From contig NZ_PDJI01000004.1 of the NCBI RefSeq assembly GCF_002563695.1, positions 1,364,001 through 1,428,000 of the forward strand: 64,000 bases of DNA. The letters are read 5' to 3'. The number at the start of each line of letters is the position of its first letter. Position 1 is the first letter of the stretch. Shown one piece after another: positions 19,117 to 35,320 of the stretch. The DNA is from Georgenia soli. Lineage in GTDB: Bacteria > Actinomycetota > Actinomycetes > Actinomycetales > Actinomycetaceae. A program made the position numbers and the translations under genes. The notes beneath the pieces are model-generated. The model did no database searches. It saw only the letters and a list, made by a program, of their open reading frames with translations, and had not been told where the DNA came from.

Positions 19117-19131
19117 CTTCCCGACGGCGGG

Positions 19132-19157
19132 GGGGCGGGGTCTGCGGACCCCGCCCC
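19132..19157 (+). terminator. Terminator of the phosphoesterase gene
   Basis: An 11-bp perfect stem (19132-19142 with 19147-19157) capped by TGCG is followed by TTTCGTCGTC. The same GGTC-TGCG-GACC centre recurs in the terminator at 23223. Confidence 0.8.
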
Positions 19158-19385
19158 TTTCGTCGTCGTCCCGTGGGGAACCGCCGGCCGTCACTTGGCC
19201 GGACCGATCGCCGTCCCGTCGGGAACCGCTGGTGCCCTCAGCGCTGGACCGGCCAGCCCCGCCGAGGGCTTCAGAGCACGGTCCGGTGCGTATGGGGCCG
19301 ATTCCGTCCCGAATGTCGGAGGGTTCCGGCACACTACCCCGGACGGGCGACGTCGCCCCGAACCCCCCGGACGAGAGGACGCGGC

Positions 19386-22300
19386 ATGCGTCTGGCTAGA
19401 CCCCTGCTCACCTTCGCGCTGTCCGCGGCGCTCGTCGGCACTGCTGTGGCCGCACCGGCCGCGGCCGGGCCGGCTGACGAGGCGGCCAGCTGGATCGTCG
19501 AGGTCGCACCAGGTGCGCAGGACGACGTCCGGGCTGCCCTGGGCGAGATGGGGGCCGAGCCCGAGGCCGAGTTCGAGGAGGTCGTCGAGGGCTTCGCGGT
19601 CACGCTCGACGGTGCGGCGGCGGAGGAGCTCGCCGACGCCCCGGGCGTCGAGGGCGTCTTTCCCAACAACCCGGTGAGCGTCGCCGAGCCGATCCGGGAC
19701 GGGAGTGCCCAGCCCGTCCAGACGGACGGGATCCGGGCGTCCGGCGCCACAGAGGTCTGGGGGCTCGACCGGATCGACCAGAAGAACCTGCCGCTGGACG
19801 GCTACTACAACGAGTCCTCGTCAGCGGGATCCGGTGTGCGGGTCTACGTGCTCGACACCGGTGTCGTGGCCACCCATTCCGACATGCCGGGTGTCGCACC
19901 CGGATTCTCGGCGTTCGGCGGCGGCACCAAAGACTGCGACGGGCACGGCAGCCACGTCGCCGGCACGATCGCCAGCCGCACGTGGGGCGTCGCCGAAGGC
20001 GCCACCATCGTCCCGGTGCGGGTGCTCGACTGCAACGGATACGGCGACACGAGCACCTTCCTCGCCGGCCTGGACTGGGTGCTCGCCACGCACCCGGCAG
20101 GCACTCCCGCCGTGATCAACATGAGCCTGGGCTCGGACGAGCCGGACCACGCGATCGACGCGGCCGTCGTGCGGATGTTCGACGCCGGTTTCTTCATCGC
20201 CGCTGCGGCCGGCAACGACGGCGCCGACGCCTGCCAGACGTCACCGGCGCGCTCGTACGGCTCGTACACGGTCGGCGCGACCGACCGGGAGGACCGGCGC
20301 GCCGAGTTCTCCAACTGGGGGCCTTGCCTCGACATCTTCGCCCCCGGGGACGAAATCGCCTCGTTGCACAGGCTCGATCCCTACTGGACCATCGACTCCG
20401 GAACGTCGATGGCGGCCCCGCACGTCGCTGGGGCTGCCGCGGTCTACCTCGGACAGCACCCCGACGCCACGCCCCAGGAGGTCCAAGCTGCTCTGGCCGC
20501 CGCGGCGTCAGGCTGGGTGGAGGACGCCGGGTACCAGAGCCCGTCCAAGGTGCTGACCATGGGCGCGTCGCTGACCCCCGGGGCACCGGCGAACCTCGTC
20601 GCCACCGCGGGCGGACCCGGCTACGCGCACGTGTCGTGGTCCGCGCCGTCGGGCGCGCTGGTCGCACCGAGCTACGTGGTCGAGGTACGGCGGAGCGGCG
20701 GATCGTGGCAGACCAGCACGACGACGAGCCAGACGGACGCCCGGATCAGCACCGGCGTGCCGCTCGCCGGCTCGTACGACGTGCGCGTGACCGCGAACGT
20801 CGGACAGTTCGCCGGGGTCCCCTCGGCCATCCTCAGCCTGACCCCTCTGGTGACGCCGGCCGACGTCGTCTTCCGCGACACCGACGGGAACGACAAGGAC
20901 ACCTACACCGTCCCGGCCGCCCGAGGGGTGGAGTACCTCGTCGACGGTGACGTGGTCGCCGCCGGCACGTACCCGGGCAGCGGCACCGTGACGGTCACCG
21001 CCCGCGCGGCGGCGAGCTTCGTCCTGGTCGAAGGCGCCGCCACCGAGTGGACCCACACCTTCGACGCCCGGCCCTACCCGGCCGAGCCCGCCGCCGTCGT
21101 CTTCACCGACACCGACGGGACCGAGGAGGATAGCTACACGATCCCGGCCGTCGACGGGGTGGAGTACCTCATCGGCGGCGAGATCGTCGCGGCCGGCACC
21201 TACCCCGGCGCCGGCACCGTGACGGTCACGGCTCGCGCGGCGGCGGACCACGTCCTGGTCGAGGGCGCCGCCACCGAGTGGACCCACACCTTCGACGCCC
21301 GCCCCTACCCGGCCGAGCCCGCCGCCGTCGTCTTCACCGACGAGGACGGCGCCGAGAACGACACCTACACGATCCCCGCGGTCGACGGCGTCGAGTACCT
21401 GGTCGACGGCAGGGTCGTGCAGGCGGGGACCCACCCGGGCAGCGGCACCGTCACGGTCGCCGCCCTCGCGGCGGCGGACCACGTCCTCGTCGAGGGCGCC
21501 GCCACCGAGTGGACCCACACCTTCGACGCCCGGCCCTACCCGGCCGAGCCCGCCGCCGTCGTCTTCACCGACGAGCGCGGGACCGAGAACGACACCTACA
21601 CGATCCCCGCTGTCGAGGGCGTCGAGTACCTCGTCGGCGGCGAGATCGTCGACGCCGGCACGTACCCGGGCAGCGGCACCGTCACGGTCACCGCCCGCGC
21701 GGCGGCGGACCACGTCCTGATCGAGGGCGCCACCACCGAGTGGACCCACACCTTCGACGCGTCCCTCGCGCCGGTCAGCGCCACGCCTGCAGCGGTCACC
21801 TTCACCGACGAGGACGGCACCGAGAAGGACAGCTACACGATCCCCGCCGTCAGAGGGGTGGAGTACGTCATCGGCGGCGAGCCGGTCGCCGCGGGCACCT
21901 ACCCGGGCACCGGCACGGTGACGGTCACCGCGCGCGCCCTGGACGGTTGGGTCCTGACCGGCACCACCGAGTGGACCCACACGTTCGACGTCCGCCCCGT
22001 TGCGGTTCGGCCCGCAGCCGTGGCGTTCGTCGACCAGGACGGCACCGCGAAGGACACCTACACGATCCCGGCGGTCGAAGGGGTCGAGTACCTCGTCGGC
22101 GGCAAGGTCGTCGGTGCGGGCACCTACCCCGGCACCGGCACCGTGACCGTGACGGCGCGCGCCAGGCCGGGCTACGTCCTCGTCGCGGGCTCGACCGCGA
22201 GCTGGAGCCGCACCTTCAACTCCAGCTTCCCGCAGGCGTCGATCGCCAGGTGGGCCGGGGCGGACCGGTACGCCGTCTCCGCCGCCGTCTCGAGGGCGAA

Positions 22301-23138
22301 CTTCGACCCCGGCGTGCCGGTGGTCTACATCGCCAACGGCCTGACCTCCGTCGATGCCCTCTCCGCCGCCCCGGTGGCCGGCATGACCAAGGGTCCCGTC
22401 CTGCTCACCCGGGCCGACTCCCTGCCGACCGAGGTCACCAACGAGATCCGACGCCTCAAGCCCGGCCGCATCGTCATCCTCGGCGGCACCGGCGCCGTCA
22501 GCTCCGGCATCCAGCAACAGCTGCGCGGATACGCCGGCACCGTCGACCGCTGGGCCGGGGCGGACCGGTACGCCGTCTCCGCCGCCGTCTCGAGGGCGAA
22601 CTTCGACCCAGGTGTGCCGGTGGTCTACATCGCCAACGGGCTGACCTCCGTCGACGCCCTCTCCGCCGCACCCGTGGCCGGCATGACCAAGGGCCCCGTC
22701 CTCCTCACCCGGGCCGGCTCCCTGCCGACCGAGGTCGCCAACGAGATCCGACGCCTCAAGCCCCGCCGCATCGTCATCCTCGGCGGCACCGGCGCCGTCA
22801 GCTCCGGCATCCGGCAACAGCTGCGCGGATACGCCGGCACCGTCGACCGCTGGGCCGGCGCGGACCGGTACGCCGTCTCCGCCGCCGTCTCGAGGGCGAA
22901 CTTCGACCCCGGCGTGCCGGTGGTCTACATCGCCAACGGCCTCACCTCCGTCGACGCCCTCTCCGCCGCCCCCGTGGCCGGCATGACCAAGGGCCCCGTC
23001 CTCCTCACCCGGGCCGACTCCCTGCCGACCGACGTCGCCAACGAGATCCGGCGCCTCAAGCCCCGCCGCATCGTCATCCTCGGCGGCACCGGCGCCGTCA
23101 GCACGAACGTGCAACGAGAGCTGGATCGGATCAGCTAG
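19386..23138 (+). CDS. Secreted subtilisin-family protease with FN3, six 77-residue repeats and three cell-wall-binding repeats
   Basis: A 1,250-residue modular exoprotein. Domains: signal peptide 1-28; inhibitor-I9-like propeptide about 35-100; S8 catalytic domain about 120-395 with Asp in VLDTGV (about 156), His in DGHGSHVAGT (about 187), Asn in AAAGNDG and Ser in SGTSMAAPHVAG (about 341). A fibronectin-III-like domain follows at about 399-490. Six repeats of about 77 residues (TYTIPAVxGVEYLVGG, then GTVTVTARA and TEWTHTFD) span about 491-950. Three 100-residue CWB2 repeats with WAGADRYAVS and GGTGAVS cover about 955-1250. CWB2 modules bind cell-wall polymers non-covalently, so the protease is likely surface-held. 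ATG 19386 begins the signal peptide. Confidence 0.95.
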   Translation: MRLARPLLTFALSAALVGTAVAAPAAAGPADEAASWIVEVAPGAQDDVRAALGEMGAEPEAEFEEVVEGFAVTLDGAAAEELADAPGVEGVFPNNPVSVAEPIRDGSAQPVQTDGIRASGATEVWGLDRIDQKNLPLDGYYNESSSAGSGVRVYVLDTGVVATHSDMPGVAPGFSAFGGGTKDCDGHGSHVAGTIASRTWGVAEGATIVPVRVLDCNGYGDTSTFLAGLDWVLATHPAGTPAVINMSLGSDEPDHAIDAAVVRMFDAGFFIAAAAGNDGADACQTSPARSYGSYTVGATDREDRRAEFSNWGPCLDIFAPGDEIASLHRLDPYWTIDSGTSMAAPHVAGAAAVYLGQHPDATPQEVQAALAAAASGWVEDAGYQSPSKVLTMGASLTPGAPANLVATAGGPGYAHVSWSAPSGALVAPSYVVEVRRSGGSWQTSTTTSQTDARISTGVPLAGSYDVRVTANVGQFAGVPSAILSLTPLVTPADVVFRDTDGNDKDTYTVPAARGVEYLVDGDVVAAGTYPGSGTVTVTARAAASFVLVEGAATEWTHTFDARPYPAEPAAVVFTDTDGTEEDSYTIPAVDGVEYLIGGEIVAAGTYPGAGTVTVTARAAADHVLVEGAATEWTHTFDARPYPAEPAAVVFTDEDGAENDTYTIPAVDGVEYLVDGRVVQAGTHPGSGTVTVAALAAADHVLVEGAATEWTHTFDARPYPAEPAAVVFTDERGTENDTYTIPAVEGVEYLVGGEIVDAGTYPGSGTVTVTARAAADHVLIEGATTEWTHTFDASLAPVSATPAAVTFTDEDGTEKDSYTIPAVRGVEYVIGGEPVAAGTYPGTGTVTVTARALDGWVLTGTTEWTHTFDVRPVAVRPAAVAFVDQDGTAKDTYTIPAVEGVEYLVGGKVVGAGTYPGTGTVTVTARARPGYVLVAGSTASWSRTFNSSFPQASIARWAGADRYAVSAAVSRANFDPGVPVVYIANGLTSVDALSAAPVAGMTKGPVLLTRADSLPTEVTNEIRRLKPGRIVILGGTGAVSSGIQQQLRGYAGTVDRWAGADRYAVSAAVSRANFDPGVPVVYIANGLTSVDALSAAPVAGMTKGPVLLTRAGSLPTEVANEIRRLKPRRIVILGGTGAVSSGIRQQLRGYAGTVDRWAGADRYAVSAAVSRANFDPGVPVVYIANGLTSVDALSAAPVAGMTKGPVLLTRADSLPTDVANEIRRLKPRRIVILGGTGAVSTNVQRELDRIS
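20856..22235 (+). repeat. Six tandem ~231-bp repeats in the protease gene
   Basis: Units start at about 20856, 21087, 21318, 21549, 21786 and 22011. Units 2 to 4 are the most alike, with long identical stretches around TEWTHTFD. They encode a beta-rich stalk between the protease and the wall-binding repeats. Confidence 0.9.
22251..23138 (+). repeat. Three nearly identical 300-bp CWB2-encoding repeats
   Basis: Copies begin at 22251, 22551 and 22851 with exact 300-bp spacing and differ at only scattered bases. The last copy diverges at its 3' end, where it reads STNVQREL instead of SSGIQQQL. Such near identity means recent duplication or gene conversion, and copy number could vary. Confidence 0.95.
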
Positions 23139-23549: not shown

Positions 23550-25151
23550 TCAGGCGTGCTCCAGCGCCCCCTCGAACAACCGCCGCACCGCCTTCTTGTC
23601 CACCTTCAGGTTCGGCGTCAACGGAAGCTCCTCGCAGAACCGGTAGTGCCGCGGGATCTGGTACGTCGCCAGGCGCGCCCGCAGCGCGGCGGGGATCGTC
23701 CCGGGATCGACTGCCGCTCCGGCGTCGACTGCCAGCAGCGCGGCGGGCTCCTCGCCGTAGACGGAATGAGGCACCCCCACCACGGCGGCGTCACGGACGC
23801 CCGGCAGACGGCGAAGCTCCTCCTCGACGTCGATGCACCAGACCTTCTCGCCACCGCGGTTGATCATGTCCTTGGTGCGGTCCACCACGTAGACGTAGCC
23901 CGCGGCGTCGGCGTAGCCCACGTCCCCGGTGGACAGCCAGCCGTCCGCGGTCAGGGCCGGGGTGTCGAGGCCGTCGTACCGCCGCAGGACGTTGGTGCCC
24001 CGCAGCCAGATCTCACCGCGCTCCCCCACCTCGGCCTCGCTCCCGTCCGGCCGGCGGATCGCCACCACCAGGCCCGGGATCGGAATGCCCGAGGACCCCC
24101 GATGCGGGCTGGTGGCCGAGTCACCCGGGAAGACGAGGGCGGGCGAGGAGGTCTCCGTCAGGCCGTACACCGTGTGGAACGCCATCCCGGGCAACCAGGC
24201 GTGCAGCTCCTCCAGTCGCGACACCGGCATGTGCGCGGCCCCGCAGGCCATCGACCGCAGGTGGGGCAGGTCCGGGAAGCGGTCCGCCAGCTGCAGCAGC
24301 ATGGTGAAGACGGTGGGGGACGCGTGCAGGAAGGTGACGGCCTCGTCGCGCGCCGTCTCCAGCACGCGCACCGCGTCGAAGCGCCGCTGCAGGTGCACCC
24401 GGCCACCGATGTGTACGAAGAGCCCGAGCACGGCGACGAGCCCGGTGATGTGGTAGATCGGGACGGGCAGAATGGTGGAGTCCCCGGCGCCCAGACCAAG
24501 GGTGCGCTCGTAGGCGACGATGGCGTGCCCGGCGTTGCGGTTGGTCAGCAGCACCCCCTTCGAGCGCGCCGTGGTGCCCGAGGTGTACATGAGGACGGCG
24601 TCCGCGTCCGGGTCCTGCGAAGGCACGGGGGCCGGCCGCGCCGGGTCCTTGCTCCACAGCTCGTCGACGTGGTCGCGGTCCGCCCAGAGCACCGGCACAG
24701 CGCCACCGGTGAGGCACTCCAGCGACTCGAACCGCCGGTCCGCGATCACCAGCACAGCGCCCGCGCGCTCGAGGAGCGACTCGACCTCCGGCTCCCGGTA
24801 CTTCGTGGGCACGGGGACGACCACGGCACCGAGCCTGTTAGCCGCGTACAGCGCGACGGCGAACTCGATGGAGGTGTCGAGCAGGAACGCCACCCGCTCC
24901 CCGGGGCGCACGCGTTCGGACAGCACGCCGGCGAAGCGCTCCACCGCCGCGAGCAGCTCGGCGAAGGTGCAGCGCCGGCCGTCCTCCTCAGTGAGCGCCA
25001 CGTCCCCGGGCTGCCGGGCGGCCGTGGCCGCGAGCGAGGCGTACAGGCTCGGCGGGGCGTCGTCGAACACCCGCACAACGCGCCCGCCCGCCTCGACGTC
25101 GCGCAGCCCGGTGGTGACGGCGGCGTCCCACAGCTGGTCCCCGACAATCAT
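23550..25151 (-). CDS. AMP-forming acyl-CoA synthetase/ligase
   Basis: A 533-residue ANL-superfamily ligase. The P-loop-like motif YTSGTTARSKGVLL is near residue 185, YGLTETSSP near 320, DGWLSTGDVGY near 400 and DRTKDMINRGGEKV near 420. The C-terminal catalytic Lys region reads PLTPNLKVDKKAVRR. It activates a carboxylic acid with ATP and CoA. As last gene of the LacI-headed operon, it may make the CoA thioester of the imported hydroxy-acid. ATG 25151 has AAGGAG upstream and overlaps the glycerate kinase stop. Confidence 0.92.
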   Translation of the reverse strand: MIVGDQLWDAAVTTGLRDVEAGGRVVRVFDDAPPSLYASLAATAARQPGDVALTEEDGRRCTFAELLAAVERFAGVLSERVRPGERVAFLLDTSIEFAVALYAANRLGAVVVPVPTKYREPEVESLLERAGAVLVIADRRFESLECLTGGAVPVLWADRDHVDELWSKDPARPAPVPSQDPDADAVLMYTSGTTARSKGVLLTNRNAGHAIVAYERTLGLGAGDSTILPVPIYHITGLVAVLGLFVHIGGRVHLQRRFDAVRVLETARDEAVTFLHASPTVFTMLLQLADRFPDLPHLRSMACGAAHMPVSRLEELHAWLPGMAFHTVYGLTETSSPALVFPGDSATSPHRGSSGIPIPGLVVAIRRPDGSEAEVGERGEIWLRGTNVLRRYDGLDTPALTADGWLSTGDVGYADAAGYVYVVDRTKDMINRGGEKVWCIDVEEELRRLPGVRDAAVVGVPHSVYGEEPAALLAVDAGAAVDPGTIPAALRARLATYQIPRHYRFCEELPLTPNLKVDKKAVRRLFEGALEHA

Positions 25152-26323
25152 GAGAACTCCTTGGATCGGGTGCCGACCGCGCCGGGCCGGTCGACGGTCG
25201 CGGTGATGAGGCGGCTGGCGAGCGCGGCGGCGCGCTCGAGGTTCGTGGGCCCCTCCGCGAGCGCGTGCGGCAGGTCGCTGACGCCGCGGACGATGGGGAC
25301 GATCGCCCGGACCCCGGGCGGCATGGCGGCGTCGACGGCGTCGTCGACGTGGCCGGCGAACACCACCACGGGTACGCCGACCTCGAGGGCGAGCTGCGCC
25401 ACGCCCCACGGCACCTTCCCTGCGGCGGACTGGGCGTCCATGCTGCCCTCCCCCGTGAAGATCAGGTCGGCGGAGCCGACGAGTCGCGCGAGCCCGACCG
25501 CGTCCATGACGACCTCGATGCCCGGGCGAATCCGGGCGCCGGTGAAGGCGAGGAACGCCGCGCCCAGGCCGCCGGCGGCACCGGCGCCGGGCACGTCGCG
25601 CACCGAGACCCCACGTGCCTTCTCGACGACGTCAGCCCAGCGGGTGAGCGCACCGTCGAGCTCCTCGACCGCCTGAGGCGTCGCACCCTTCTGGGGCCCG
25701 AACACCTTGCTGGCCCCGTCCGGGCCGAGCAGGGGGTTGGTGACGTCGCAGGCCAGGAGGATCTCGACGTCGGCAAGGTTGATGCGCAACCCGGAGTCGT
25801 CGACACGGGCGAGACGGGCGAGGTCGGCACCACCGGGGCGCAGCTCGAGGCCCTGCTCGTCGAGGAACCGCACGCCCAGCGCCTGGAGCATGCCGGTGCC
25901 GGCGTCGTTGGTGGCGGAGCCGCCGAGGCCGATCACCAGGTGCCGCGCCCCGAGGTCGAGCGCGGCGGTCACCAGCTCGCCGGCACCGAAGCTGGTGGTG
26001 GTGCGCGCGTCGCGCAGCTCCGCGGGCACCTGCTCGAGCCCGCAGGCGCTGGCCACCTCGATGACCGCGAGCGCCCGGTCGGCGACCCAGCCGACGGTGC
26101 CGGTGGACGGGCGGCCCAGCGCGTCGGTGCATGGCACGTGAACGAGCTCGCCGCCGAGGACCTCCACGAGGGTGGCGCAGGTGCCCTCACCGCCGTCGGC
26201 GAGCGGGACCTCCACGACGTCCGCGCCGGGTAGTACCCGGCGGATCCCGCGCGCCATGGCTGCCGCGGCCTCGGCCGCCGTCATCGACTCCTTGAACGAG
26301 TCGGGGGCGCAGACGATCCTCAT
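25148..26323 (-). CDS. Glycerate kinase (GarK/GlxK family)
   Basis: A 391-residue type-1 glycerate kinase. It begins with the signature IVCAPDSFKESMTAAEAAAAM, followed by PLADGGEGT, GLGGSATNDAGTG and FTGEGSMDAQS, all diagnostic of the GarK/GlxK family that makes 2-phosphoglycerate from D-glycerate. Length is typical. ATG 26323 follows ACAGGAGGAGCTCCC. In an operon of CoA-dependent beta-oxidation-like enzymes, it implies that one cleavage product is glycerate. Confidence 0.94.
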   Translation of the reverse strand: MRIVCAPDSFKESMTAAEAAAAMARGIRRVLPGADVVEVPLADGGEGTCATLVEVLGGELVHVPCTDALGRPSTGTVGWVADRALAVIEVASACGLEQVPAELRDARTTTSFGAGELVTAALDLGARHLVIGLGGSATNDAGTGMLQALGVRFLDEQGLELRPGGADLARLARVDDSGLRINLADVEILLACDVTNPLLGPDGASKVFGPQKGATPQAVEELDGALTRWADVVEKARGVSVRDVPGAGAAGGLGAAFLAFTGARIRPGIEVVMDAVGLARLVGSADLIFTGEGSMDAQSAAGKVPWGVAQLALEVGVPVVVFAGHVDDAVDAAMPPGVRAIVPIVRGVSDLPHALAEGPTNLERAAALASRLITATVDRPGAVGTRSKEFS

Positions 26324-26390
26324 GGGAGCTCCTCCTGTCTTTCGAGCGTGCCGGCACGGGTGCAGCGGGCCCCGTGCCGGCACGGCACTG

Positions 26391-27749
26391 CTAGGAAACG
26401 CTGACGGTCTCCGCCTGGTAGGTGGCGCGCTGGCGCGCGCCCTTCAGGCCCCAGGCGAGGGCCGAGCCGATCACCGTCAGGACGACGATGAACCACAGAC
26501 CGGCCAGCGGGTTGCCGGTGGAGGTCTCGAGCGAGCCCATGATGGTGGGGCCGAGGAAACCGCCCAGGAGGCCGAACATGTTCACCATGGCGATGCCGGC
26601 CGCCGTCGCCGCGCCGGAGAGACGCCGCCCCGGGAAGGTGAACAGCACGGACTGGATCACGAAGAACCAGAACGCCGCGAACGCGAAGCCGAGCACGGCC
26701 AGCACCAGGTTGTTGTTCGACGTGGCGGCGACCACGAGTCCGACCGCCACGGAGAAGAGCCCGCCGGAGACGAGCATCTTCTGCAGCCGCAGCGTGGTGC
26801 CGAACCGGGGCAGCGTCGAGGAGCCGACCGCCGCCGCGATCCACGGGATGGCGGTGATGAGGCCGACGGTCAGGTTGGACATGCCGTCGTCGAAGTTGCG
26901 GATCATCGACGGCAGGAAGTAGCTGAGCGAGTACACCGCCACCTGGTGGGTGAAGTAGATCGCGATGACGAGCCAGATGATCTTGTCCTTGGCCACCGGG
27001 ATGAGGGCCTTGAAGCCGTGGCTCTGCGAGGCGGCGCCGTCGTCCTCCGCGGCGAGCTGCTGGTCGAGCAGAGCCTTGTCCTCGGCGGTGAGCCACTTGG
27101 CCTGGTGGGGCTTGTCCGGCAGCCAGAACCAGACGACGAACGCCAGCAGCACGGCGGGCAGGCCCTCGATGATGAACATCCACTGCCACCCGTGGAGCCC
27201 GCCCATGCCGTCGAGGCCGAGGAGCAGGCCGCCCAGCGGGGCGCCGATGACGTTCGCCAGGGACACACCGAGCAGGAAGATGCCGATGGCGCGCGCCCGG
27301 TGCGCCCGGGGGAACCAGTAGGTGATGTACAGGATCATGCCCGGGTAGAGACCGGCCTCGGCGGCACCGAGCAGGATGCGCAGGACGTAGAAGCTGGTCT
27401 CGTTCCAGACGATGGCCATCGCCATCGAGATGATGCCCCAGGTGATCATGATGCGCGCGATCCAGAAGCGCGCACCGACCTTGTGCATGATCAGGTTGGA
27501 GGGGATCTCCAGCAGGGCGTAGAAGGCGAAGAACAGCCCGGCACCGAGCCCGTACGCGGCGGCACTCAGCCCGATGTCGACCTCGAGGGCCTCCTTGGCC
27601 ATCCCGATGTTGGTGCGGTCGATGAAACTGATCACGTAGACGATGACCAGCAGCGGCATGAGCTTGCGGAAGTTGGTGGCCGAGATGGCCTCCAGCCGCG
27701 ACCGCTTGGTGGGCTCCGCCATTGGGCCCACGTCGGTGGTTTCCGACAT
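26391..27749 (-). CDS. MFS transporter of the anion:cation symporter family
   Basis: A 452-residue 12-helix MFS protein. The family mark is YVISFIDRTNIGMAKEAL in helix 1, with IPSNLIMHKVGARFWIAR between helices 2 and 3, as in tartrate, phthalate and sugar-acid importers. It likely imports the hydroxy-acid handled by the operon. ATG 27749 has AAAGGAAGACGA upstream. It starts 107 bp after the thiolase stop, past a strong hairpin, so its level may be set separately. Confidence 0.9.
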   Translation of the reverse strand: MSETTDVGPMAEPTKRSRLEAISATNFRKLMPLLVIVYVISFIDRTNIGMAKEALEVDIGLSAAAYGLGAGLFFAFYALLEIPSNLIMHKVGARFWIARIMITWGIISMAMAIVWNETSFYVLRILLGAAEAGLYPGMILYITYWFPRAHRARAIGIFLLGVSLANVIGAPLGGLLLGLDGMGGLHGWQWMFIIEGLPAVLLAFVVWFWLPDKPHQAKWLTAEDKALLDQQLAAEDDGAASQSHGFKALIPVAKDKIIWLVIAIYFTHQVAVYSLSYFLPSMIRNFDDGMSNLTVGLITAIPWIAAAVGSSTLPRFGTTLRLQKMLVSGGLFSVAVGLVVAATSNNNLVLAVLGFAFAAFWFFVIQSVLFTFPGRRLSGAATAAGIAMVNMFGLLGGFLGPTIMGSLETSTGNPLAGLWFIVVLTVIGSALAWGLKGARQRATYQAETVSVS

Positions 27750-27810
27750 TCGTCTTCCTTTCAGGAGGGTTGCTGCTCCACAGCGAGCGGGGTGGGGGGT
27801 GCCCTCGGTG

Positions 27811-27842
27811 CGCCCTGCCGGGGGTCGTTCCCCGGCAGGGCG
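27811..27842 (-). terminator. Intra-operon hairpin between thiolase and MFS genes
   Basis: A 13-bp perfect stem (27811-27823 with 27830-27842) and six-base loop sits in the only long gap of the operon. There is no T tract. It could cause partial termination or protect the 3' end of the upstream message. Confidence 0.6.
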
Positions 27843-27856
27843 TACAGGGGGTGGTT

Positions 27857-29038
27857 TCAGAGCGCCCGGAAGAGGGCAGCCACGGCCTGGCCGCCTCCGA
27901 TGCACATGGACACGAGGCCGTGCTCCAGGTTGTTGCGGTGCAGCGCCTCGATGAGCCGGACCGTGAGGATGCCGCCCGTGGCGCCGATCGGGTGGCCCCA
28001 CGCGATGGCCCCGCCGAGGGGGTTCACCTTCTCGGGGTCGAGACCGGCGTCGCGGATGACCGCCACCGCCTGGGCGGCGAACGCCTCGTTGAGCTCGATC
28101 CAGCCGATGTCGGCGGCGGACATGCCCTGGCGGTCCAGGAGCTTCTCGATGGCGACCTTCGGCGCGTACCCCATGATCTCGGGGTCGACGCCCGCCTTGG
28201 TGAAGTCGACCAGCTCCGCGCGCGGCTTCAGCCCGCGGCGCTCCGCCTCGGCAGCGGTCGTGACGACGACGGCGGACCCGGCGTCGTTGATCCCGGAGGA
28301 GTTCCCGGCGGTGACGGACCCGTCCTTCTTGAAGGCGGGCCGCATCTTCGCCAGCCGCTCCACCGTCACGCCGGCGCGCGGGTGCTCGTCCGTGTCGACG
28401 ACGCGATCGCCCTTGCGCTCGGAGATGGTGATCGGCTCGATCTCGCCCTTGACCGTGCCCTCGGCGATCGCCACCTGGGCGCGCCGCTGGGACTCGACGG
28501 CGAACTCGTCCTGCATCTCACGCGTGATGCCGTAGCGCTCGGCGACGTTCTCCGCCGTCATGCCCATGGGGTAGTTGCCCCAGGGGTCGGTGACGAGCGA
28601 GAGGGTTCCGTCCACCAGGTTGTGGTGGCCGAGCTTCCAGCCGTTGCGGGCGTCGAAGTCCATGAAGGGCTGGCGGGACATGTTCTCGGTGCCGCCGGCG
28701 ACGGCGACCTTGGCCTCGCCGACGAGCAGCTCCTGGGCCGCCGTCGCGATGGCCTGCAGACCGGAGCCGCACAGGCGGTTGACCGCCATGGCAGTCGACT
28801 CCGGGCGGGCGCCGGCCGCGAGCGAGACGCGGCGGCCGATGAAGGCGTCGCCGCCGACCTGGCCCACGCAGCCGATGACGAACTCGTCGACGTCCTCCAC
28901 GGCGACGCCGGCCCGGGCGCAGGCGGCCTTCACGGCGTGGGCGCCGAGCTCGTGGTTGGGCACCGCGGCGAGCGCCCCGCCGAAGCTGCCGGTGGGCGTG
29001 CGCGCGCCGTCGACGATGACGATCCTGTCCTTGCTCAT
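27857..29038 (-). CDS. Acetyl-CoA C-acyltransferase (beta-ketothiolase)
   Basis: A 393-residue thiolase. The nucleophile Cys lies in NRLCGSGLQA (about 88), NEAFAAQ precedes the active-site His in WGHPIGATG (about 348), and the second Cys lies in SMCIGGGQ (about 378). It cleaves a 3-oxoacyl-CoA with CoA to acetyl-CoA and a shortened acyl-CoA. ATG overlaps the CoA-transferase stop (ATGA). Downstream of an oxidoreductase and next to glycerate kinase, the shortened product may be glyceryl-CoA (inference). Confidence 0.94.
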   Translation of the reverse strand: MSKDRIVIVDGARTPTGSFGGALAAVPNHELGAHAVKAACARAGVAVEDVDEFVIGCVGQVGGDAFIGRRVSLAAGARPESTAMAVNRLCGSGLQAIATAAQELLVGEAKVAVAGGTENMSRQPFMDFDARNGWKLGHHNLVDGTLSLVTDPWGNYPMGMTAENVAERYGITREMQDEFAVESQRRAQVAIAEGTVKGEIEPITISERKGDRVVDTDEHPRAGVTVERLAKMRPAFKKDGSVTAGNSSGINDAGSAVVVTTAAEAERRGLKPRAELVDFTKAGVDPEIMGYAPKVAIEKLLDRQGMSAADIGWIELNEAFAAQAVAVIRDAGLDPEKVNPLGGAIAWGHPIGATGGILTVRLIEALHRNNLEHGLVSMCIGGGQAVAALFRAL

Positions 29039-30510
29039 GCTGAAACTTCCTCCGTCAGTGCGATCTTGATGGCGTCGAGGGCGGCGTCGGCGTCGGGGCC
29101 CTCGTCCCGGTCGAGCAGGACCCAGCCACGCCCGGTGAGCTGAAGCAGGTAGTGCTGGGTGGCGAGGTAGACCTCCTGCCCCTTGGCCAGGGCGCGGCGG
29201 CCGTTGTAGCTGACCTGGTCGACCTTCTCCACGAACTTGGTGTGCTTGCCGCTGGCGGACATGAGGAAGCACAGCTTGCGTGCGCCGTCGACGATGTCCA
29301 TGAACCCGCCGCAGCCGATGGCCTTGCCGCCGAGGAAGGAGACGTTGACGTTGCCCACGCCGTCGAACTGGCCGATCCCCATGAACGTGATGTCCACGCC
29401 GCCGCCGTTGTAGAAGTCCATCTGCTGCGGGTGGCCGATGATGGCCTGCGGATGGATGCTGCAACCGAAGTCCACGACTCCGAGCGGGATGCCGCCGTAG
29501 GTTCCCGACTCGACCGTCAGGTGCACCTTGTCGAGCAGGTTCGCGCGGGTGAGGGCGCGGCCGATGGTGTCGGCCGGGATGCCGGTGCCCACGTTGATCA
29601 CGTCGCCGGGCTGGACCAGGGTGACGCCGCGGACGCCCACGGCGACCCGGTCCTCCGCCATGTCCTGCGCCTCGAACGCCTGGCCGACGTTCTCCGGGGA
29701 GACGTAGCCGGTGATGAGGTCGGCGTTGAACTCCGGGAACGTGTGCGACTGGCGGTGGTGCGCCGCCGCGTCGGAGGTCTGCACCACGTAGTCGACCAGC
29801 ACGGCGGGGACGGTGACGTCGCGGGCGTCGATCTCCCCGGGCTCGACGACGTCGCGCACCTGGGCGATGACGATGCCGCCGCTGTTGTGGACGGCCTGGG
29901 CGATCGCCAGGGCGTCGAGCCCGGAGACCTCCTCACGCTGGCTGAGGTTGCCGAGCCGGTCGACGGCGGAGCCGCGGATGATGGCGACGTCGAGCTTGAA
30001 GGACTTGTAGAAGAGGTACTCCTCGCCGTGCAGCTCGAGGAGCTCGACGTACTCGTCCGGCGCGATGTTCGCCTTCGCGGAGGCGTTGATGCGGCCGCCG
30101 TCGCCGCGGGGGTCGACGTAGGTGCCCAGGCCGACGGTGGAGAGCTGGCCGGGGCGCTTCGCGGCGATCGTGCGGAAGAGGGTGGACAGCTGCCCCTGCG
30201 GCAGGCACACCGCCTCCGCCTTGTCGTCGCCGAGCAGCTCCGCCATCGGCGGGTTGAGACCCCAGTGCGAACCGACGACCCGGCGCAGCAGACCCTCGTG
30301 CGCGACCCGGGCCAGGCCCTCGACCCGGTTGCTCTGGCCCGCGGAGTGCACCCAGGTGAGGTCGCGCGGCTGAGCCGTGGAGAGGAAGGACCTCTCGATG
30401 GCGGCCAGCACCTCGTCGGCCACGCCCATGAGGGTCATGCCGTCGGACACGACGGTGGCCCCGTCGGGCACCAGACCGGCGACCTCGTCGATGGTGATGA
30501 ACCGGGTCAC
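29035..30510 (-). CDS. Acetate/propionate CoA-transferase family protein (fused alpha-beta)
   Basis: A 491-residue single-chain CoA-transferase of the YdiF/Pct type, with both half-domains. The catalytic Glu is in LTVESGTYGG (about 318) and the conserved GTGIPAD and GVNVSFLGG-like stretches flank it. It swaps CoA between acyl-CoA and a free acid. In this operon it could pass CoA from the thiolysis product to the incoming acid, freeing glycerate. GTG 30510 overlaps the SDR stop (GTGA); the longer open frame upstream is only the shadow of the SDR gene. Confidence 0.92.
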   Translation of the reverse strand: MTRFITIDEVAGLVPDGATVVSDGMTLMGVADEVLAAIERSFLSTAQPRDLTWVHSAGQSNRVEGLARVAHEGLLRRVVGSHWGLNPPMAELLGDDKAEAVCLPQGQLSTLFRTIAAKRPGQLSTVGLGTYVDPRGDGGRINASAKANIAPDEYVELLELHGEEYLFYKSFKLDVAIIRGSAVDRLGNLSQREEVSGLDALAIAQAVHNSGGIVIAQVRDVVEPGEIDARDVTVPAVLVDYVVQTSDAAAHHRQSHTFPEFNADLITGYVSPENVGQAFEAQDMAEDRVAVGVRGVTLVQPGDVINVGTGIPADTIGRALTRANLLDKVHLTVESGTYGGIPLGVVDFGCSIHPQAIIGHPQQMDFYNGGGVDITFMGIGQFDGVGNVNVSFLGGKAIGCGGFMDIVDGARKLCFLMSASGKHTKFVEKVDQVSYNGRRALAKGQEVYLATQHYLLQLTGRGWVLLDRDEGPDADAALDAIKIALTEEVSA

Positions 30511-31247
30511 AGCTTGTAACCCCCGCCGACGTTGACGACCTCGCCGGTGACGTAGGCGGCGTCGTCGCTCGCGAGGAAGGCGACCACGCGGGCGACGTCC
30601 TCGGGCTGGCCGGCGCGCTGGAGCGGGATCTTGTCCAGCTGCGCCGCGAACAGGTTCTCCGGCATCCCGCGCGTCATGTCCGTCTCGATGAAGCCGGGGC
30701 AGATCGCGTTGGCGGTGATCTGCGAGCGGGCGAGCTCCTTGGCGATGGATCGGGTGAGGCCGACGACGCCCGCCTTGGCGGCGGCGTAGTTGGTCTGCCC
30801 GATGTTGCCCATCCAGGACGCCGAGGAGATGTTGACGATGCGGCCGTACTTCTGCTGGCGCATGTGGGCCCCGACCGCGCGGCACATGTAGAAGACGCCG
30901 GACAGGTCGACGGCGATGACGTCGTCCCACTGCTCGTCCGTCATCTTCCACAGCATCGCGTCGCGGTTAATGCCCGCGTTGTTGACGAGGATGTCGATCT
31001 TGCCGTGCCGCTCGACCACCTCGGCGACGGCGGCGTCGACCGCCTCCCGGTCCGCGACGTTCAGCGCGAGACCCGTGCTGCCGTTGCCGGCCGCCTCGGC
31101 GGTGGCGCTCGCCTGGTCCGCGTCCATGTCCGCGACGACCACGGTGGCGCCACGCTCGGCGAGCACCAGGGCGATGCCTCGCCCGATGCCGCGGGCGGCC
31201 CCCGTGACGAGGGCGACCTTCCCGTCGAGAGGCTTGCTGTCAGACAT
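30507..31247 (-). CDS. Short-chain dehydrogenase/reductase (FabG-like)
   Basis: A 246-residue classical SDR. The cofactor motif is TGAARGIG at about 13-20, NNAG at about 85, catalytic Ser in NISSASW, and YAAAK (Tyr-xxx-Lys) at about 153. Asp in VVADMD after beta-2 suggests NAD preference. It probably oxidises a 3-hydroxyacyl-CoA or hydroxy-acid to the 3-oxo form for the thiolase. ATG 31247 follows GGAGAAGATCC and lies 8 bp inside the LacI gene end. Confidence 0.93.
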   Translation of the reverse strand: MSDSKPLDGKVALVTGAARGIGRGIALVLAERGATVVVADMDADQASATAEAAGNGSTGLALNVADREAVDAAVAEVVERHGKIDILVNNAGINRDAMLWKMTDEQWDDVIAVDLSGVFYMCRAVGAHMRQQKYGRIVNISSASWMGNIGQTNYAAAKAGVVGLTRSIAKELARSQITANAICPGFIETDMTRGMPENLFAAQLDKIPLQRAGQPEDVARVVAFLASDDAAYVTGEVVNVGGGYKL

Positions 31248-32292
31248 GGATCTTCTCCGTTCTTGTGGCACAGCCACAGCTCTTTCCGATGTACAGGCCG
31301 TGCGGGAGCACGATGGACTGGGCGGGAGCGTTCGGGGTGCGCTGCCGCTCGTGAAGGAGACGGACCGCCTCGGCCGCCATGCGGGGTCGCGGCTGCACGA
31401 CGGTGGTGATGTCCACGAGGCTCGTGCGGGCGGTGGTCAGCCCGTCGAACCCCGTCACCGCGATGTCGTCGGGGACCTGCAGGCCGCGGCCAGCGAGGAC
31501 GGCGATCACGCCCAGGGCGATCGCGTCGGTCCCGCAGACGATGACCTCGGGCAGCTCCGGCTGGTCGAGGAGGTGCCGGGCGGCACGTGCGCCGTCGACC
31601 TCGTTCAGGCCGCCGGTGATGTTCCAGGCACGCGGCAGGTCGACGCCGCGGACGCGGAGCGCGCGGCGGAAGCCGTCGGCCCGGTGCGCCGACGCGGATG
31701 AGCTGACGGGGCCTCCCACCACGGCGACCTTGGTGTAGCCGTGATCGAGCACGTGGTCCATCACCTCGGCGCCGGCCGCGAGGTCGTCGATCCCGACGAA
31801 GTCCGCCTCGGCGGAGAGCATCCGGCGCGAGATCTGGACGAAGGGGATGCGGGCCGCACGCAGGGGGCGGCATACGTCGGCGTTGCCCGCCTGCAGGGCG
31901 GTGATCAGCACGCCGTCCACGCCGTGGTGGATCATCGCGTCGACGGCGGCAGCCACCGACTCAGGGGCGTCGCTGCTGTTGCTGAGGAACACCTCGAACC
32001 CGCGCTCCCGGGCCGCGTCGGTGACCGAGATCGCCATCTCCGAGTAGTACGGGTTGCCGACGTCGGCCAGCACCAGCCCCAGCACGGGCTGGGTGGCGGG
32101 CCGAAGAGCCGCCGCCGGGATGTCCATCCCGTGCTCGACGGCGGCGTCGAGGATGCGTCGCCGCAGCTCGTCGGACACGCCCCGTCGTCCGTTCAAGGCG
32201 TAGGAGACGGCCGCCGAGCTGACGCCGAGCAGGCGTGCCAGACCGGCCGCGGAGACAGCCCTGCCCCCGCCCAAAATGTCATCGTTGCTCAT
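31240..32292 (-). CDS. LacI-family transcriptional regulator heading the operon
   Basis: A 350-residue LacI/GalR protein. The DNA-binding domain at about 12-62 has AGLARLLGVSSAAVSYALNGRRGVS, including the hinge-proximal LNG motif. The periplasmic-binding-like domain starts at LGLVLADVGNPYYSEM (about 70). The C-terminus ends in a Cys-containing CGCATRTEKIHV tail. It is the first gene of the seven-gene operon and its stop overlaps the SDR gene, so it is cotranscribed and probably autoregulates. The ligand is unknown; a sugar acid would fit the enzymes. Confidence 0.93.
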   Translation of the reverse strand: MSNDDILGGGRAVSAAGLARLLGVSSAAVSYALNGRRGVSDELRRRILDAAVEHGMDIPAAALRPATQPVLGLVLADVGNPYYSEMAISVTDAARERGFEVFLSNSSDAPESVAAAVDAMIHHGVDGVLITALQAGNADVCRPLRAARIPFVQISRRMLSAEADFVGIDDLAAGAEVMDHVLDHGYTKVAVVGGPVSSSASAHRADGFRRALRVRGVDLPRAWNITGGLNEVDGARAARHLLDQPELPEVIVCGTDAIALGVIAVLAGRGLQVPDDIAVTGFDGLTTARTSLVDITTVVQPRPRMAAEAVRLLHERQRTPNAPAQSIVLPHGLYIGKSCGCATRTEKIHV

Positions 32293-32666
32293 CAGCCCAC
32301 CGTCGCGCTCAGGTCCGTAGGACCAAACCTGTGCCCACCATCCGGGCGGGCGACGGCCTTAAGCAACGTTAAGTGGGGCCTGACGACCGTCACGCCGGGC
32401 CGGTATGCCCGGTCGTGGGGGGGTCTGCCAGGTCTGCCCGGTCGTGCCCTTTCTGCCCGGTGTGCCCCGTCTGGCCGGCGCGGAGCAGGTGTCCGCTGTC
32501 CGGCGGCCCCGGGATAGAATCGGGCTCGGACGTCCCCATTTGCGTCGGCGCAGGCCCGGGTCGGTCATCCGCCCTGGTCACTCGGCTGCGGGAACCGCCG
32601 ACGCCGATCGAACGACAGGACCAGCTGAGCCGAATGCCCGCCGTGCAGCCTCCGGAGGTGAGCCAG
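32293..32666. promoter_or_regulatory. Divergent upstream region of the LacI operon and coiled-coil pair
   Basis: An inverted repeat CTTAA-N6-TTAAG lies at 32358-32373, 66 bp ahead of the LacI start, in an otherwise GC-rich region; it is the best candidate operator. From 32403 to 32480 there is a degenerate tandem pattern (TGCCCGGTC-type units repeated about four times). No gene is supported before the coiled-coil start. The low-complexity Cys/Pro frame through the repeats is probably untranslated. Confidence 0.5.
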
Positions 32667-34094
32667 GTGGACGCCGTGATCTCGCCGGACGCTGGCGTGG
32701 CGCTCCCGCCACCCGCGGCGCCGACGACGGCGGACGAGGCCGTCCATCTGCTCTCGCTGGCCCAGCGTCACGCCGACGCGATCCGCGCCGAGGCGGACCG
32801 GCTGCACGCCGAGGCTCTGCGCCTGCACGCCGAGGCCGAGGAGGCGCGACGTGCCGCCGTCGTCCAGCTGGACGAGGCGCAGGAGGAGGCCACCCAGCTC
32901 GTCGCCGACGCCGCCGAGCAGGCGGCCCTCGTGCTGGCGGAGGCAGACCGGGCGCGCGACGAGGTGCTGGGTGAGGCGGAGTCGGCCGCCGCGGTGGTGC
33001 GCGCCCGCGCGGAACGGGCCGCCGTCGAGGCCGACGGGCGGTCCGCGCGCCTCGTCGAGGAGGCACAGGAACGCAGCCGGCAGCTCCTGGCCGAGGCGGA
33101 GGCCGAGGTCGCGCGGCGCACGGCCGCCCTCGCCGCCGAGGAGGAAAGGGTCCGTCAGGCCGGCGCCGACGAGGCGGAGCGGACGGTGCGCGAGGCCCGC
33201 GAGGAGGCCGAGCGGCTCCGAGCGGACGCCGCCGACGCCGCCGACGCGATGCGCGGCGAGGCGACGACGGAGCTGGAGCGGGCCCGCGGCCACGCGGCGG
33301 CCGAGCTGGCCACGGCCGCGGAGCAGGCGGCCCGGATCCGCGACGAGGCACGGGCCACCGCGGAGGCGGACATCGCCCTCGCCGCGGAGCAGATGGACTG
33401 GACGCAGCGCACGGTCGAGCAGCTGGTGTCCGCGGCCGAGCTGGAGGCCGAGCGGCTCCACGGCCGGGGCCACGCGGCCGCGGCCGAGAGGGTGCGGTCG
33501 GTCCGCCGTCGTCTGCAGCCGGTGATCGGCGCCGTGGCCGCCAAGGTCCGCGCGCGGCTCGCAGCCGCCGAGGAGGCCGCGGCGGCCGTGCGGGCCGAGG
33601 CCGACGACCACCTGGCGTCCGCGCGGGCGGCGGCCGAGGCGGAGCGTCTGAGCGCCCGGGAGGACGCCGCCCGGACGCTGGCCGAGGCGGAGGCGCGCGC
33701 CGCCGCGATGGTGGAGCGGGCGGAACGGCGCCTTGCCGGCGCGGAGCAGGGCGCCCGCGTGCTGCGGGAGCAGGCTGCCCAGCAGTCCGGAGCCGCCCAG
33801 CGCGCGGTCCAGGACCGGCTCCGCGAGGCCCGCACGGAGGCGGCGAGCCTCGTGGCCGAGGCCCGGACCGAGGCCGACGACCTGCGCGCCCGTGCGCGCG
33901 AGCTCCTCGACGCCGCCCGCGCCGAGGTGCGCGCCCTCACCGAGCGCCGCGACCGCATCGCGACCGAGCTGGGTCAGCTCTCCGGCGTCATCGACGCCCT
34001 CGCGGTGCCCGACCCCTTCCCTGACCTCTCCCCCGACCCCCCGTCCACCGACGACCTCACCACCCACCACGACAAGGAACGCGACGCCCGATGA
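32667..34094 (+). CDS. Long Ala/Glu/Arg-rich coiled-coil protein (Scy/FilP-like context)
   Basis: About 475 residues, almost entirely predicted alpha-helical coiled coil from about residue 20 to 445, built from heptads such as AEADRLHAEALRLHAEAEEA. No enzymatic domain or membrane segment is seen. The C-terminus is a short acidic/proline tail. GTG 32667 is chosen because GGAGGTGAGCCAG lies just upstream; ATG 32634 in the same frame is the alternative. It overlaps the next coiled-coil gene (ATGA), which has a DivIVA-like start. The tandem pair recalls Streptomyces scy-filP polarity genes, but homology needs testing. Confidence 0.8.
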   Translation: MDAVISPDAGVALPPPAAPTTADEAVHLLSLAQRHADAIRAEADRLHAEALRLHAEAEEARRAAVVQLDEAQEEATQLVADAAEQAALVLAEADRARDEVLGEAESAAAVVRARAERAAVEADGRSARLVEEAQERSRQLLAEAEAEVARRTAALAAEEERVRQAGADEAERTVREAREEAERLRADAADAADAMRGEATTELERARGHAAAELATAAEQAARIRDEARATAEADIALAAEQMDWTQRTVEQLVSAAELEAERLHGRGHAAAAERVRSVRRRLQPVIGAVAAKVRARLAAAEEAAAAVRAEADDHLASARAAAEAERLSAREDAARTLAEAEARAAAMVERAERRLAGAEQGARVLREQAAQQSGAAQRAVQDRLREARTEAASLVAEARTEADDLRARARELLDAARAEVRALTERRDRIATELGQLSGVIDALAVPDPFPDLSPDPPSTDDLTTHHDKERDAR

Positions 34095-35320
34095 GCCAGA
34101 CATCCTTCCGAACCGTCCTTCGGGGCTACGACCCCGCCGAGGTCGAGCAGCACCTCGGGGAGCTGACCGCGGCGCTGCAGGGCGCCCGCGAGCAGACCGA
34201 CGAGCTCGCCCGCCGGGTGCAGGCCCTCGAGGCGGCCGAGAGCGCCGCGGCGGCCGCGGTCACCGAGGCCAACCGTCAGCGGGAGGAGGCCGAGCGCCGC
34301 GCCGAGCAGCCGGCCCCCGAACCGACCTGGTCGGACTTCGGCGCCCGGATCGGCTCGATCCTGCAGCTGGCGGAGGAGGAGGCCGAGGAGCTGCGGGAGA
34401 CCGCGCGGCAGGAGGTGGCGGAGCAGCGGGAGCAGGCGGCGGCGGAGGCCGAGGGCCTGCGGGCCGAGGCGGAGCGGTACGCCGCGCAGACCCGCAGCGC
34501 CGCCGAGGCGGACGCCACCCGCACCCTCGAGCGCGCCCGCCGCGAGGCCGACGACATCCTCGACCAGGCCGACCACGACGCCACCGTGCGCCGCGAGGAG
34601 GCCGAGGCCGTGTACGAGCAGCAGCGCGCCCGGGCGGCGCAGGCGGCGGCGGACTTCGAGACGACGCTGGCGCAGCGCCGGCAGCAGGCGGAGGAGGACT
34701 TCGCGAGCCGTGCCGTCGCCGCGGAGCAGCAGCTGGTGGCGGTGCAGAACCGCGCGGAGCTGATCCGCTACGAGAGCGAGCAGCTGCAGGCCGACGCCGA
34801 GCAGAAGGCCCGCCGCGCGCTGGAGGAGGCCGAGCGGCAGGCGCACGAGCTCGTCAGCGAGGCCCGGACCCGCGCGGAGCGGATCCGCAACGAGTCCGAC
34901 CGCGAGCTGGCGGCCGCCACCCAGCGCCGCGACAGCATCAACGCCCAGCTCGCCAACGTCCGGCAGATGCTGGCCACGCTCACCGGTGGCAGCGCCCCCG
35001 TCGACCCGCTGGCCGTGCCCGCGCCCGCGCCGCAGGCGGCGCCTGTGGCCGAGGCGACGGACGGCGGCCAGGCGGTCCCGGCCGACGACGCAGCAGCGGC
35101 CGACGACGCGACCACCGCCGACGACGCGTCGGCCGAGGATCCGACGGCCGAGAACCCGACGGCCGGTACCGGCGATGCCGACGACGGCGACGCGACGCCC
35201 GCCGCCGTCGACGACTCCGCCGAGGCGGGTGCGCCCACCCCCACGGAGGATGAGCTGGCCGATGCGGACCAGCCGGACTCGGTGGAGCCGGCGGAGACGG
35301 CCGGGGCCCGCGCGCGCTGA
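34091..35320 (+). CDS. DivIVA-like coiled-coil protein (FilP/Scy-type)
   Basis: A 409-residue protein. The N-terminus SFRTVLRGYDPAEVEQHLGEL matches the DivIVA-type membrane-curvature/lipid-binding segment and the FilP start. A long coiled coil follows from about 25 to 300 with a break at about 77-90 (PAPEPTW). The last ~100 residues are acidic, disordered Ala/Asp/Thr-rich sequence. Proteins of this type assemble filaments at cell poles and interact with DivIVA. ATG 34091 overlaps the preceding gene. Role in growth polarity is inferred from family and pairing. Confidence 0.83.
   Translation: MSQTSFRTVLRGYDPAEVEQHLGELTAALQGAREQTDELARRVQALEAAESAAAAAVTEANRQREEAERRAEQPAPEPTWSDFGARIGSILQLAEEEAEELRETARQEVAEQREQAAAEAEGLRAEAERYAAQTRSAAEADATRTLERARREADDILDQADHDATVRREEAEAVYEQQRARAAQAAADFETTLAQRRQQAEEDFASRAVAAEQQLVAVQNRAELIRYESEQLQADAEQKARRALEEAERQAHELVSEARTRAERIRNESDRELAAATQRRDSINAQLANVRQMLATLTGGSAPVDPLAVPAPAPQAAPVAEATDGGQAVPADDAAAADDATTADDASAEDPTAENPTAGTGDADDGDATPAAVDDSAEAGAPTPTEDELADADQPDSVEPAETAGARAR

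Follow-up and report, generated by a model that had tools for sequence, protein, structure and literature searches.

A seven-gene LacI-linked set in Georgenia soli as a probable operon for 2-deoxy-D-ribonate catabolism through acyl-CoA intermediates

A stretch of 64,000 nucleotides from Georgenia soli (contig NZ_PDJI01000004.1, positions 1,364,001 to 1,428,000; hereafter the window) contains seven adjacent genes which very probably form a LacI-controlled catabolic operon for 2-deoxy-D-ribonate, an actinobacterial variant of the acyl-coenzyme A (acyl-CoA) pathway of Klebsiella. The assignment rests on the gene set itself, on five proteins whose best matches lie in one Klebsiella cluster, on conserved synteny and on a conserved upstream site. 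In order of transcription, the predicted genes are as follows:

31240..32292, minus strand: LacI-family regulator, 350 residues, with PF00356 and Peripla_BP domains
30507..31247, minus strand: short-chain dehydrogenase/reductase (SDR) of the FabG/PhaB type, 246 residues, proposed 2-deoxyribonyl-CoA 3-dehydrogenase
29035..30510, minus strand: CoA-transferase of the YdiF or propionate CoA-transferase type, 491 residues, GTG start, PF01144
27857..29038, minus strand: BktB-like thiolase, 393 residues, proposed to cleave 3-keto-deoxyribonyl-CoA
26391..27749, minus strand: importer of the major facilitator superfamily (MFS), galactonate/HpaX kind, 452 residues, termed MFS1
25148..26323, minus strand: glycerate kinase of the GarK/GlxK family, 391 residues, PF02595, scoring 446 with TIGR00045 against a cut-off of 168
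23550..25151, minus strand: AMP-forming acyl-CoA ligase, 533 residues, proposed 2-deoxyribonate-CoA ligase

All seven open reading frames (ORFs) were intact and in frame in an ORF check of the window, and family scans agreed with the genes, order, place and single strand given in a first-pass annotation of this DNA. That annotation had described the genes as mostly overlapping by 4 to 8 bp, which holds for four of the six junctions (8, 4, 4 and 4 bp), but not for the other two: the thiolase and MFS genes lie 107 bp apart, the MFS and kinase genes 67 bp. The regulator had RbsR as its nearest NCBIfam model, at 160.5 bits versus a cut-off of 531. The SDR possessed the glycine-rich, NNAG and YxxxK motifs and exceeded the cut-off of NCBIfam NF004198 (FabG), and the thiolase possessed the NRLCGSG, GHP and CIGGG motifs; in comparisons with family models and solved structures, FabG/PhaB was one of the top matches of the former and BktB of the latter. 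For the CoA-transferase, the nearest solved structure was YdiF (PDB 2ahu; 235 bits over nearly the full length), and its ESGxxGG motif was found, with E334 invariant across 19 aligned sequences. The ligase carried the TSGTT, YGLTET and STGD motifs, and its matches to fatty acyl-CoA ligase models were all below cut-off among the 25 matches listed.

In K. michiganensis M5al, deoxyribonate utilisation is encoded by the cluster BWI76_RS23695-RS23730, which specifies, in order of locus tag, a CoA-synthetase, a CoA-transferase, a beta-hydroxyacyl-CoA dehydrogenase, a thiolase, an MFS protein, a lactonase, a second MFS protein (MFS2) and a glycerate kinase; the cluster matters for deoxyribonate, not for deoxynucleosides nor for any of 92 earlier profiled conditions (Price et al. 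2019, PMC6365646). The Klebsiella sequence used for comparison was K. pneumoniae CP125156, a 5.4-Mb record searched whole with the window proteins, in which the same eight genes occur in the same order. Best matches in this record fell within the cluster for the SDR (55% identity; 272.6 versus 226.9 bits for the next match), the thiolase (51%; 387.4 versus 297.4 bits), the ligase (41%; 345.6 versus 131.6 bits for the next) and the importer, which matched the cluster MFS1 (54%; 465.5 versus 309.9 bits), while the CoA-transferase had a single matching place in the whole record, inside the cluster (41%). A reciprocal search back into the G. soli genome, made for the SDR only, returned the window SDR first of 30 matches to the Klebsiella cluster SDR (273.2 versus 168.2 bits). 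Since five proteins have their best matches in one Klebsiella cluster, the acyl-CoA deoxyribonate reading, already put forward in the first-pass annotation, is supported, as it is by sister operons with Klebsiella-type lactonase and MFS2 genes (see below). The comparison with the Klebsiella genes that the annotation had called for thus linked five of the window proteins (SDR, CoA-transferase, thiolase, ligase and importer) to the cluster, but not the glycerate kinase. CP125156.1 is titled a plasmid, but at 5.37 Mb it looks like a Klebsiella chromosome. The deoxyribonate cluster is also complete on the K. pneumoniae plasmid NZ_CP091979.1 (L097), next to a deoC locus and with ISKpn1 inserted between the thiolase and MFS genes.

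Conservation was assessed by scanning 84,980 species genomes with the 19-sequence CoA-transferase alignment; the best 80 of 412 encoding stretches yielded 74 loci, of which the closest 24 (L021-L044, 51% to 74% identity) comprise 23 titled as actinobacteria and one, L034, titled Tissierella but with a Varibaculum-like operon. Genes for SDR, CoA-transferase and thiolase were present in all 24 and lacI in 23, whereas 18 loci have the kinase gene and 16 the ligase gene; three of the loci (L024, L038 and L039) are interrupted by contig ends. The exact order regulator, SDR, CoA-transferase, thiolase, MFS, kinase, ligase recurred in six (L022, L023, L026, L027, L028 and L033). Retention of the gene set across these 24 loci excludes chance grouping. 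The operon is nevertheless rare and patchy: when the best few candidates per genome were scored, the ligase was matched at E <= 1e-80 in 3 of 396 genomes of the phylum, G. soli included; among 59 near genomes a close CoA-transferase was found in the own genome only (next best 43%), and in eight genomes of the same genus the best match was 41%. This distribution fits transfer or loss. A recent mobile origin was considered and rejected, as the G+C content of the operon (0.69-0.74) lies inside the range of its flanks (0.65-0.79) and no tRNA genes were found in the window.

Upstream of the regulator gene, a palindromic candidate binding site was observed:

32359..32373, minus strand: proposed LacI operator CTTAACGTTGCTTAA, with arms ACTTAA...TTAAG, 66 bp upstream of lacI

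The exact sequence CTTAACGTTGCTTAA occurs once in the 4.27-Mb genome; one further place appeared at up to two mismatches, as for a backward control pattern, and within the window the site was the only match at up to three. The operator is conserved across genera: with at most two mismatches, it lies 5' of lacI or of the leading gene of its unit in 18 of the 24 closest loci, and in L039, additionally to these 18, it precedes the SDR gene. L025-L027 have variants in spacing or sequence, L037 showed no operator-like site, and L044 has a different palindrome. A reversed-sequence control over 471,652 bases gave no match at up to two mismatches and five at up to three. All other sites with at most two mismatches in the 24 loci precede split-off units, namely MFS/thiolase (L021), SDR (L036), and both the ABC/lactonase unit and the MFS gene (L043). 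A pattern search did not find the operator in the Bacillota loci L045-L063 or in the Klebsiella locus. From its helix-turn-helix and ligand domains and this upstream site, LacI is proposed to be a local regulator with its own conserved operator.

We infer every reaction of the route, its substrate, LacI binding and the inducer from sequence comparison. MFS1 would import free 2-deoxy-D-ribonate, which the ligase and, once the pathway is running, the CoA-transferase would convert to 2-deoxyribonyl-CoA. The SDR would oxidise this ester at C3, and the thiolase, with CoA, would cut the product to acetyl-CoA and D-glyceryl-CoA. In 2-deoxy-D-ribonate, C3 has the D configuration used by FabG/PhaB-type SDRs, and C4 yields D-glycerate, the substrate of the GarK/GlxK kinase family. 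The CoA-transferase is proposed to remove CoA from glyceryl-CoA, with acetate or a further deoxyribonate molecule as the acceptor, and so to release D-glycerate, and the kinase would make phosphoglycerate for glycolysis. In this way CoA would be recycled directly onto incoming substrate, the ligase being needed only for priming. LacI would bind CTTAACGTTGCTTAA, and the substrate or a pathway intermediate would act as inducer. The chemistry reconstructed in the first-pass annotation is that proposed for K. michiganensis (Price et al., PMC6365646).

Several observations weigh against a simple equation with the Klebsiella system. CP125156 is linked to the K. michiganensis cluster through gene order alone. 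The Klebsiella cluster kinase was third-best among the matches to the window glycerate kinase (264.9 bits versus 331.7 and 309.4), and neither a Klebsiella-type lactonase nor MFS2 was found in the G. soli genome (best matches 34% and 24%). In quick trees built from L021-L063 (43 of the 74 loci), the Klebsiella cluster and some paralogues, the Klebsiella SDR and thiolase fell outside the actinobacterial clade (support 97 and 100, respectively), and the ligase tree, in which paralogue branches are very long, placed the Klebsiella ligase among paralogues. Among the loci compared, the Klebsiella SDR, thiolase and CoA-transferase were moreover nearer to some cluster enzymes of Bacillota and one Rhodoplanes (best 64%, 62% and 61%) than to those of the window (54%, 51% and 41%), and many such Bacillota clusters have other transporters and no kinase or ligase of the window type. 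The SDR-thiolase-CoA-transferase core is thus a wider family and is not by itself deoxyribonate-specific; what ties such loci to deoxyribonate in particular is the accompanying importer, ligase, lactonase and kinase. The same trees set the core apart from its paralogues: 44 neighbourhood thiolases, including that of Klebsiella, were separated from four Klebsiella paralogues at a support of 95 in the approximate likelihood-ratio test (SH-aLRT), and nine SDR paralogues split off at 85, a tenth, long-branched one being placed elsewhere. The actinobacterial thiolase clade (support 100) leaves out L021 and L036. The thiolases of these two actinobacterial loci group with Lachnospiraceae-type and Klebsiella ones, which suggests gene replacement inside the operon.

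Other relatives of the core were seen in different settings. In six Bacillota loci (L050, L054, L056, L060, L062 and L063), genes for LacI, thiolase, SDR, a 3HCDH-type dehydrogenase and CoA-transferase are followed by a three-gene set resembling a tripartite ATP-independent periplasmic (TRAP) transporter, a resemblance noted on visual inspection of L050; these LacI-linked clusters are proposed to encode a second 3-hydroxy acid route. Three Lachnospiraceae/Clostridia loci (L045, L046 and L047) have ligase, CoA-transferase and SDR genes in the Klebsiella order, with a thiolase in L045 and L047; their CoA-transferases are 59% to 61% identical to that of Klebsiella, and the same pathway may occur in these anaerobes. 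L107 and L108, from another actinobacterial family, contain ligase, CoA-transferase, thiolase and glycerate kinase genes together with a 3HCDH-type dehydrogenase, a protein like the EIIC component of the phosphotransferase system (PTS) and a class II aldolase. The contents of L107 were checked with Pfam, and both loci were left out of the same-operon counts; their set is proposed to represent a related route.

These relatives bear on the identity of the substrate. In the Bacillota clusters and the two more distant actinobacterial ones, a 3HCDH-type dehydrogenase is added to the SDR or replaces it, which suggests that some members of the family act on C3 stereoisomers; with window enzymes just 41% to 55% identical to those of Klebsiella, the same route might serve a stereoisomer or close relative, such as 2-deoxy-xylonate or an L form, with deoxyribonate as a side substrate. 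We regard this as unlikely, because the window operon, like the Klebsiella cluster, has a FabG-type SDR only, and five of its proteins match that cluster best in the record searched.

The two intergenic gaps of the operon each contain a predicted stem-loop:

27811..27842, minus strand: stem-loop with a 13-bp stem in the thiolase-MFS gap, -48.7 kcal/mol for 111 nucleotides, z -4.2
26345..26388, minus strand: stem-loop in the MFS-kinase gap, -38.3 kcal/mol for 73 nucleotides, z -2.7

For the second, 3 of 200 shuffled sequences folded equally well. At the thiolase-MFS junction, a stable fold was also present in L022, L023, L024 and L026 and a weak one in L027; L028 and L033 are gapless there. For the gap preceding the kinase, fold energies of -0.30 kcal/mol per nucleotide or lower were obtained in 14 of 17 measured related loci (raw energies, unshuffled), the exceptions being L025 and L041, which are weaker, and L027, which is gapless. 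Strong stem-loops in gaps of 107 and 67 bp could mark a boundary between two transcription units, with the regulator, SDR, CoA-transferase and thiolase under the operator and the MFS, kinase and ligase genes separate and serving partly different substrates. A second operator was not found in the window, in keeping with such a division. However, all seven genes stand together and in order in 6 of the 24 loci, and where the MFS gene is split off (L021 and L043) a separate copy of the operator precedes it; division into two units is therefore improbable, somewhat more so than a change of isomer. The stem-loops flanking the transporter gene perhaps have a role in unequal expression.

An ordinary operon for 3-hydroxy fatty acids or 3-hydroxybutyrate (polyhydroxybutyrate, PHB), with the glycerate kinase an unrelated neighbour, is very improbable: the SDR does score as FabG, the thiolase is BktB-like and the ligase matches fatty acyl-CoA ligase models, but these last matches all stay below cut-off, the kinase and ligase are kept in the loci counted above although several of these end at contig ends, and of everything matched in the Klebsiella record by the SDR, thiolase and ligase, the deoxyribonate cluster copy is in each case the nearest. 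The alternative route through a beta-keto acid cleavage enzyme (BKACE) was rejected for the window, as no such enzyme is encoded among the seven genes, which include a thiolase instead.

With 2-deoxy-D-ribonate taken as the substrate, the sister loci point to two possible ways of uptake. An SMP-30 lactonase was encoded in 12 and MFS2 in 10 of the 24 closest loci (raw counts of loci, uncorrected for relatedness, here as for MFS1), both being absent from the window operon. MFS2 adjoins the lactonase in all 10 (in L026, both match in pieces), and L042 and L043 have the lactonase without MFS2, with ABC-transporter-like genes nearby. MFS1 was found in 10 loci, six of them without a lactonase in the stretch (L024 ends at the MFS gene) and four with one (L026, L027, L036 and L043). 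The slot between thiolase and kinase is occupied in Varibaculum by MFS1 (V. cambriense) or by lactonase-MFS2 (V. vaginae), and in Arcanobacterium by MFS1 (sp. L028), by lactonase-MFS2 (A. bovis and A. pluranimalium) or by neither (A. ihumii). The actinobacterial lactonases and MFS2 proteins are 55% to 60% and 53% to 62% identical, respectively, to those of the Klebsiella cluster.

Searches outside these loci gave a mixed picture. MFS2 matches came from 38 records, of which those of at least 49% identity were considered (three Klebsiella, two Acinetobacter), two Klebsiella and one Acinetobacter being compared; in the Acinetobacter stretch, lactonase and MFS2 are adjacent and MFS1 matches reach only 34% to 38%. 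MFS1 relatives were found in 10 plasmid records, and the stretches of six were compared (CP125156, CP091979, P. oryzihabitans, Rhodococcus WB1, Burkholderia arboris and Caballeronia sp. NK8). In B. arboris and Caballeronia sp. NK8 (two of five such records), the relative, 56% to 58% identical to Klebsiella MFS1, stands beside SDR and BKACE genes with no lactonase, from which both deoxyribonate routes would share an importer and hence probably a substrate. In P. oryzihabitans, some 6 kb separate it from a lactonase of the Klebsiella type (56%), with no MFS2 and with surrounding genes unlike those of the pathway, a weak counter-example to the module idea; in Rhodococcus WB1, it adjoins an SMP-30 protein only 24% identical to the Klebsiella lactonase.

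In K. michiganensis, loss of MFS1 causes a strong fitness defect (-4.0), whereas those of the lactonase (about -1.2) and MFS2 (about -1.4) are mild, the former possibly reflecting polarity according to the authors, by whom the reason for two apparently required transporters was not understood (PMC6365646). Taken with the module swap, these strong and mild defects suggest that MFS1 takes up the acid and MFS2 with the lactonase takes up the lactone, giving a specific answer to that two-transporter puzzle. Tentatively, and with a chance we would put a little short of even, we propose a combined model of two exchangeable uptake modules (MFS1 for the acid, MFS2 plus SMP-30 lactonase for the lactone) and a CoA-transferase performing the missing glyceryl-CoA step, with the ligase serving only for priming. 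The glyceryl-CoA hydrolase of deoxyribonate oxidation was listed as unknown in the GapMind paper (PMC9007349), and Price et al. already suggested a glyceryl-CoA role for the Klebsiella CoA-transferase (PMC6365646). Loci L041-L043 retain the kinase and CoA-transferase with no such ligase within the stretch, which fits charging of new substrate by the CoA-transferase; kept even in ligase-less stretches, this enzyme is a candidate for the step missing in GapMind.

A pathway for which the genetics come from a single strain of Klebsiella would hereby extend to another phylum, together with a predicted regulon and operator, and the swap of uptake modules is new here. Several carriers of the operon belong to Varibaculum, Arcanobacterium and Actinomyces, genera living on animals and people. 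2-Deoxy-D-ribonate is a sugar acid that derives from the sugar of DNA. Deoxyribonate is present in human urine (PMC6365646). We infer an ecological link between the carriers of the operon on animals and people and urinary deoxyribonate. Among the matches listed by a literature search, no paper dealt with the breakdown of deoxyribonate by actinobacteria or under LacI control; the word Actinobacteria was not found in the main text of PMC6365646, and in PMC11237515, PMC12215611, PMC10754987 and PMC12543098 deoxyribonate appears only within the citation of that paper.

Two features flank the operon in the window. At 18927-23138 on the plus strand, a subtilase (PF00082) is encoded that bears three repeats of cell wall binding domain 2 (PF04122) at its C-terminal end, a run of similar repeats lying between the two. 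At 32373-35320, also on the plus strand and beside the operon promoter region, two neighbouring long ORFs are rich in Ala, Glu and Arg and look coiled-coil-like by eye; a Pfam scan gave no match for either.

As in the K. michiganensis cluster, genes for ligase, CoA-transferase, dehydrogenase, thiolase, MFS importer and glycerate kinase are grouped in the window operon, and the same acyl-CoA chemistry is proposed. The two differ in regulation, as LacI heads the window operon whereas the K. pneumoniae copy of the cluster ends with a gene for a sugar-diacid-recognition (CdaR-like) regulator; gene order also differs, lactonase and second MFS genes are absent from the window operon, and its kinase is not a best-match partner. 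The BKACE route for deoxyribose or deoxyribonate has been described in Pseudomonas simiae, Paraburkholderia bryophila and B. phytofirmans (PMC6365646). It resembles the proposed route in oxidation at C3, a split into acetyl and glyceryl units, a glycerate kinase and a relative of MFS1, but the free acid is oxidised and then cleaved by the beta-keto acid cleavage enzyme, with no C5-acid ligase or thiolase. The CoA-transferase resembles the YdiF or propionate CoA-transferase family in its near-full-length similarity and ESGxxGG motif, whereas its operon context points to glyceryl-CoA and deoxyribonyl-CoA rather than to short fatty acids. Likewise, in contrast to BktB and FabG/PhaB proteins at large, the thiolase and SDR of the window are nearer to their deoxyribonate-cluster counterparts than to other Klebsiella paralogues.

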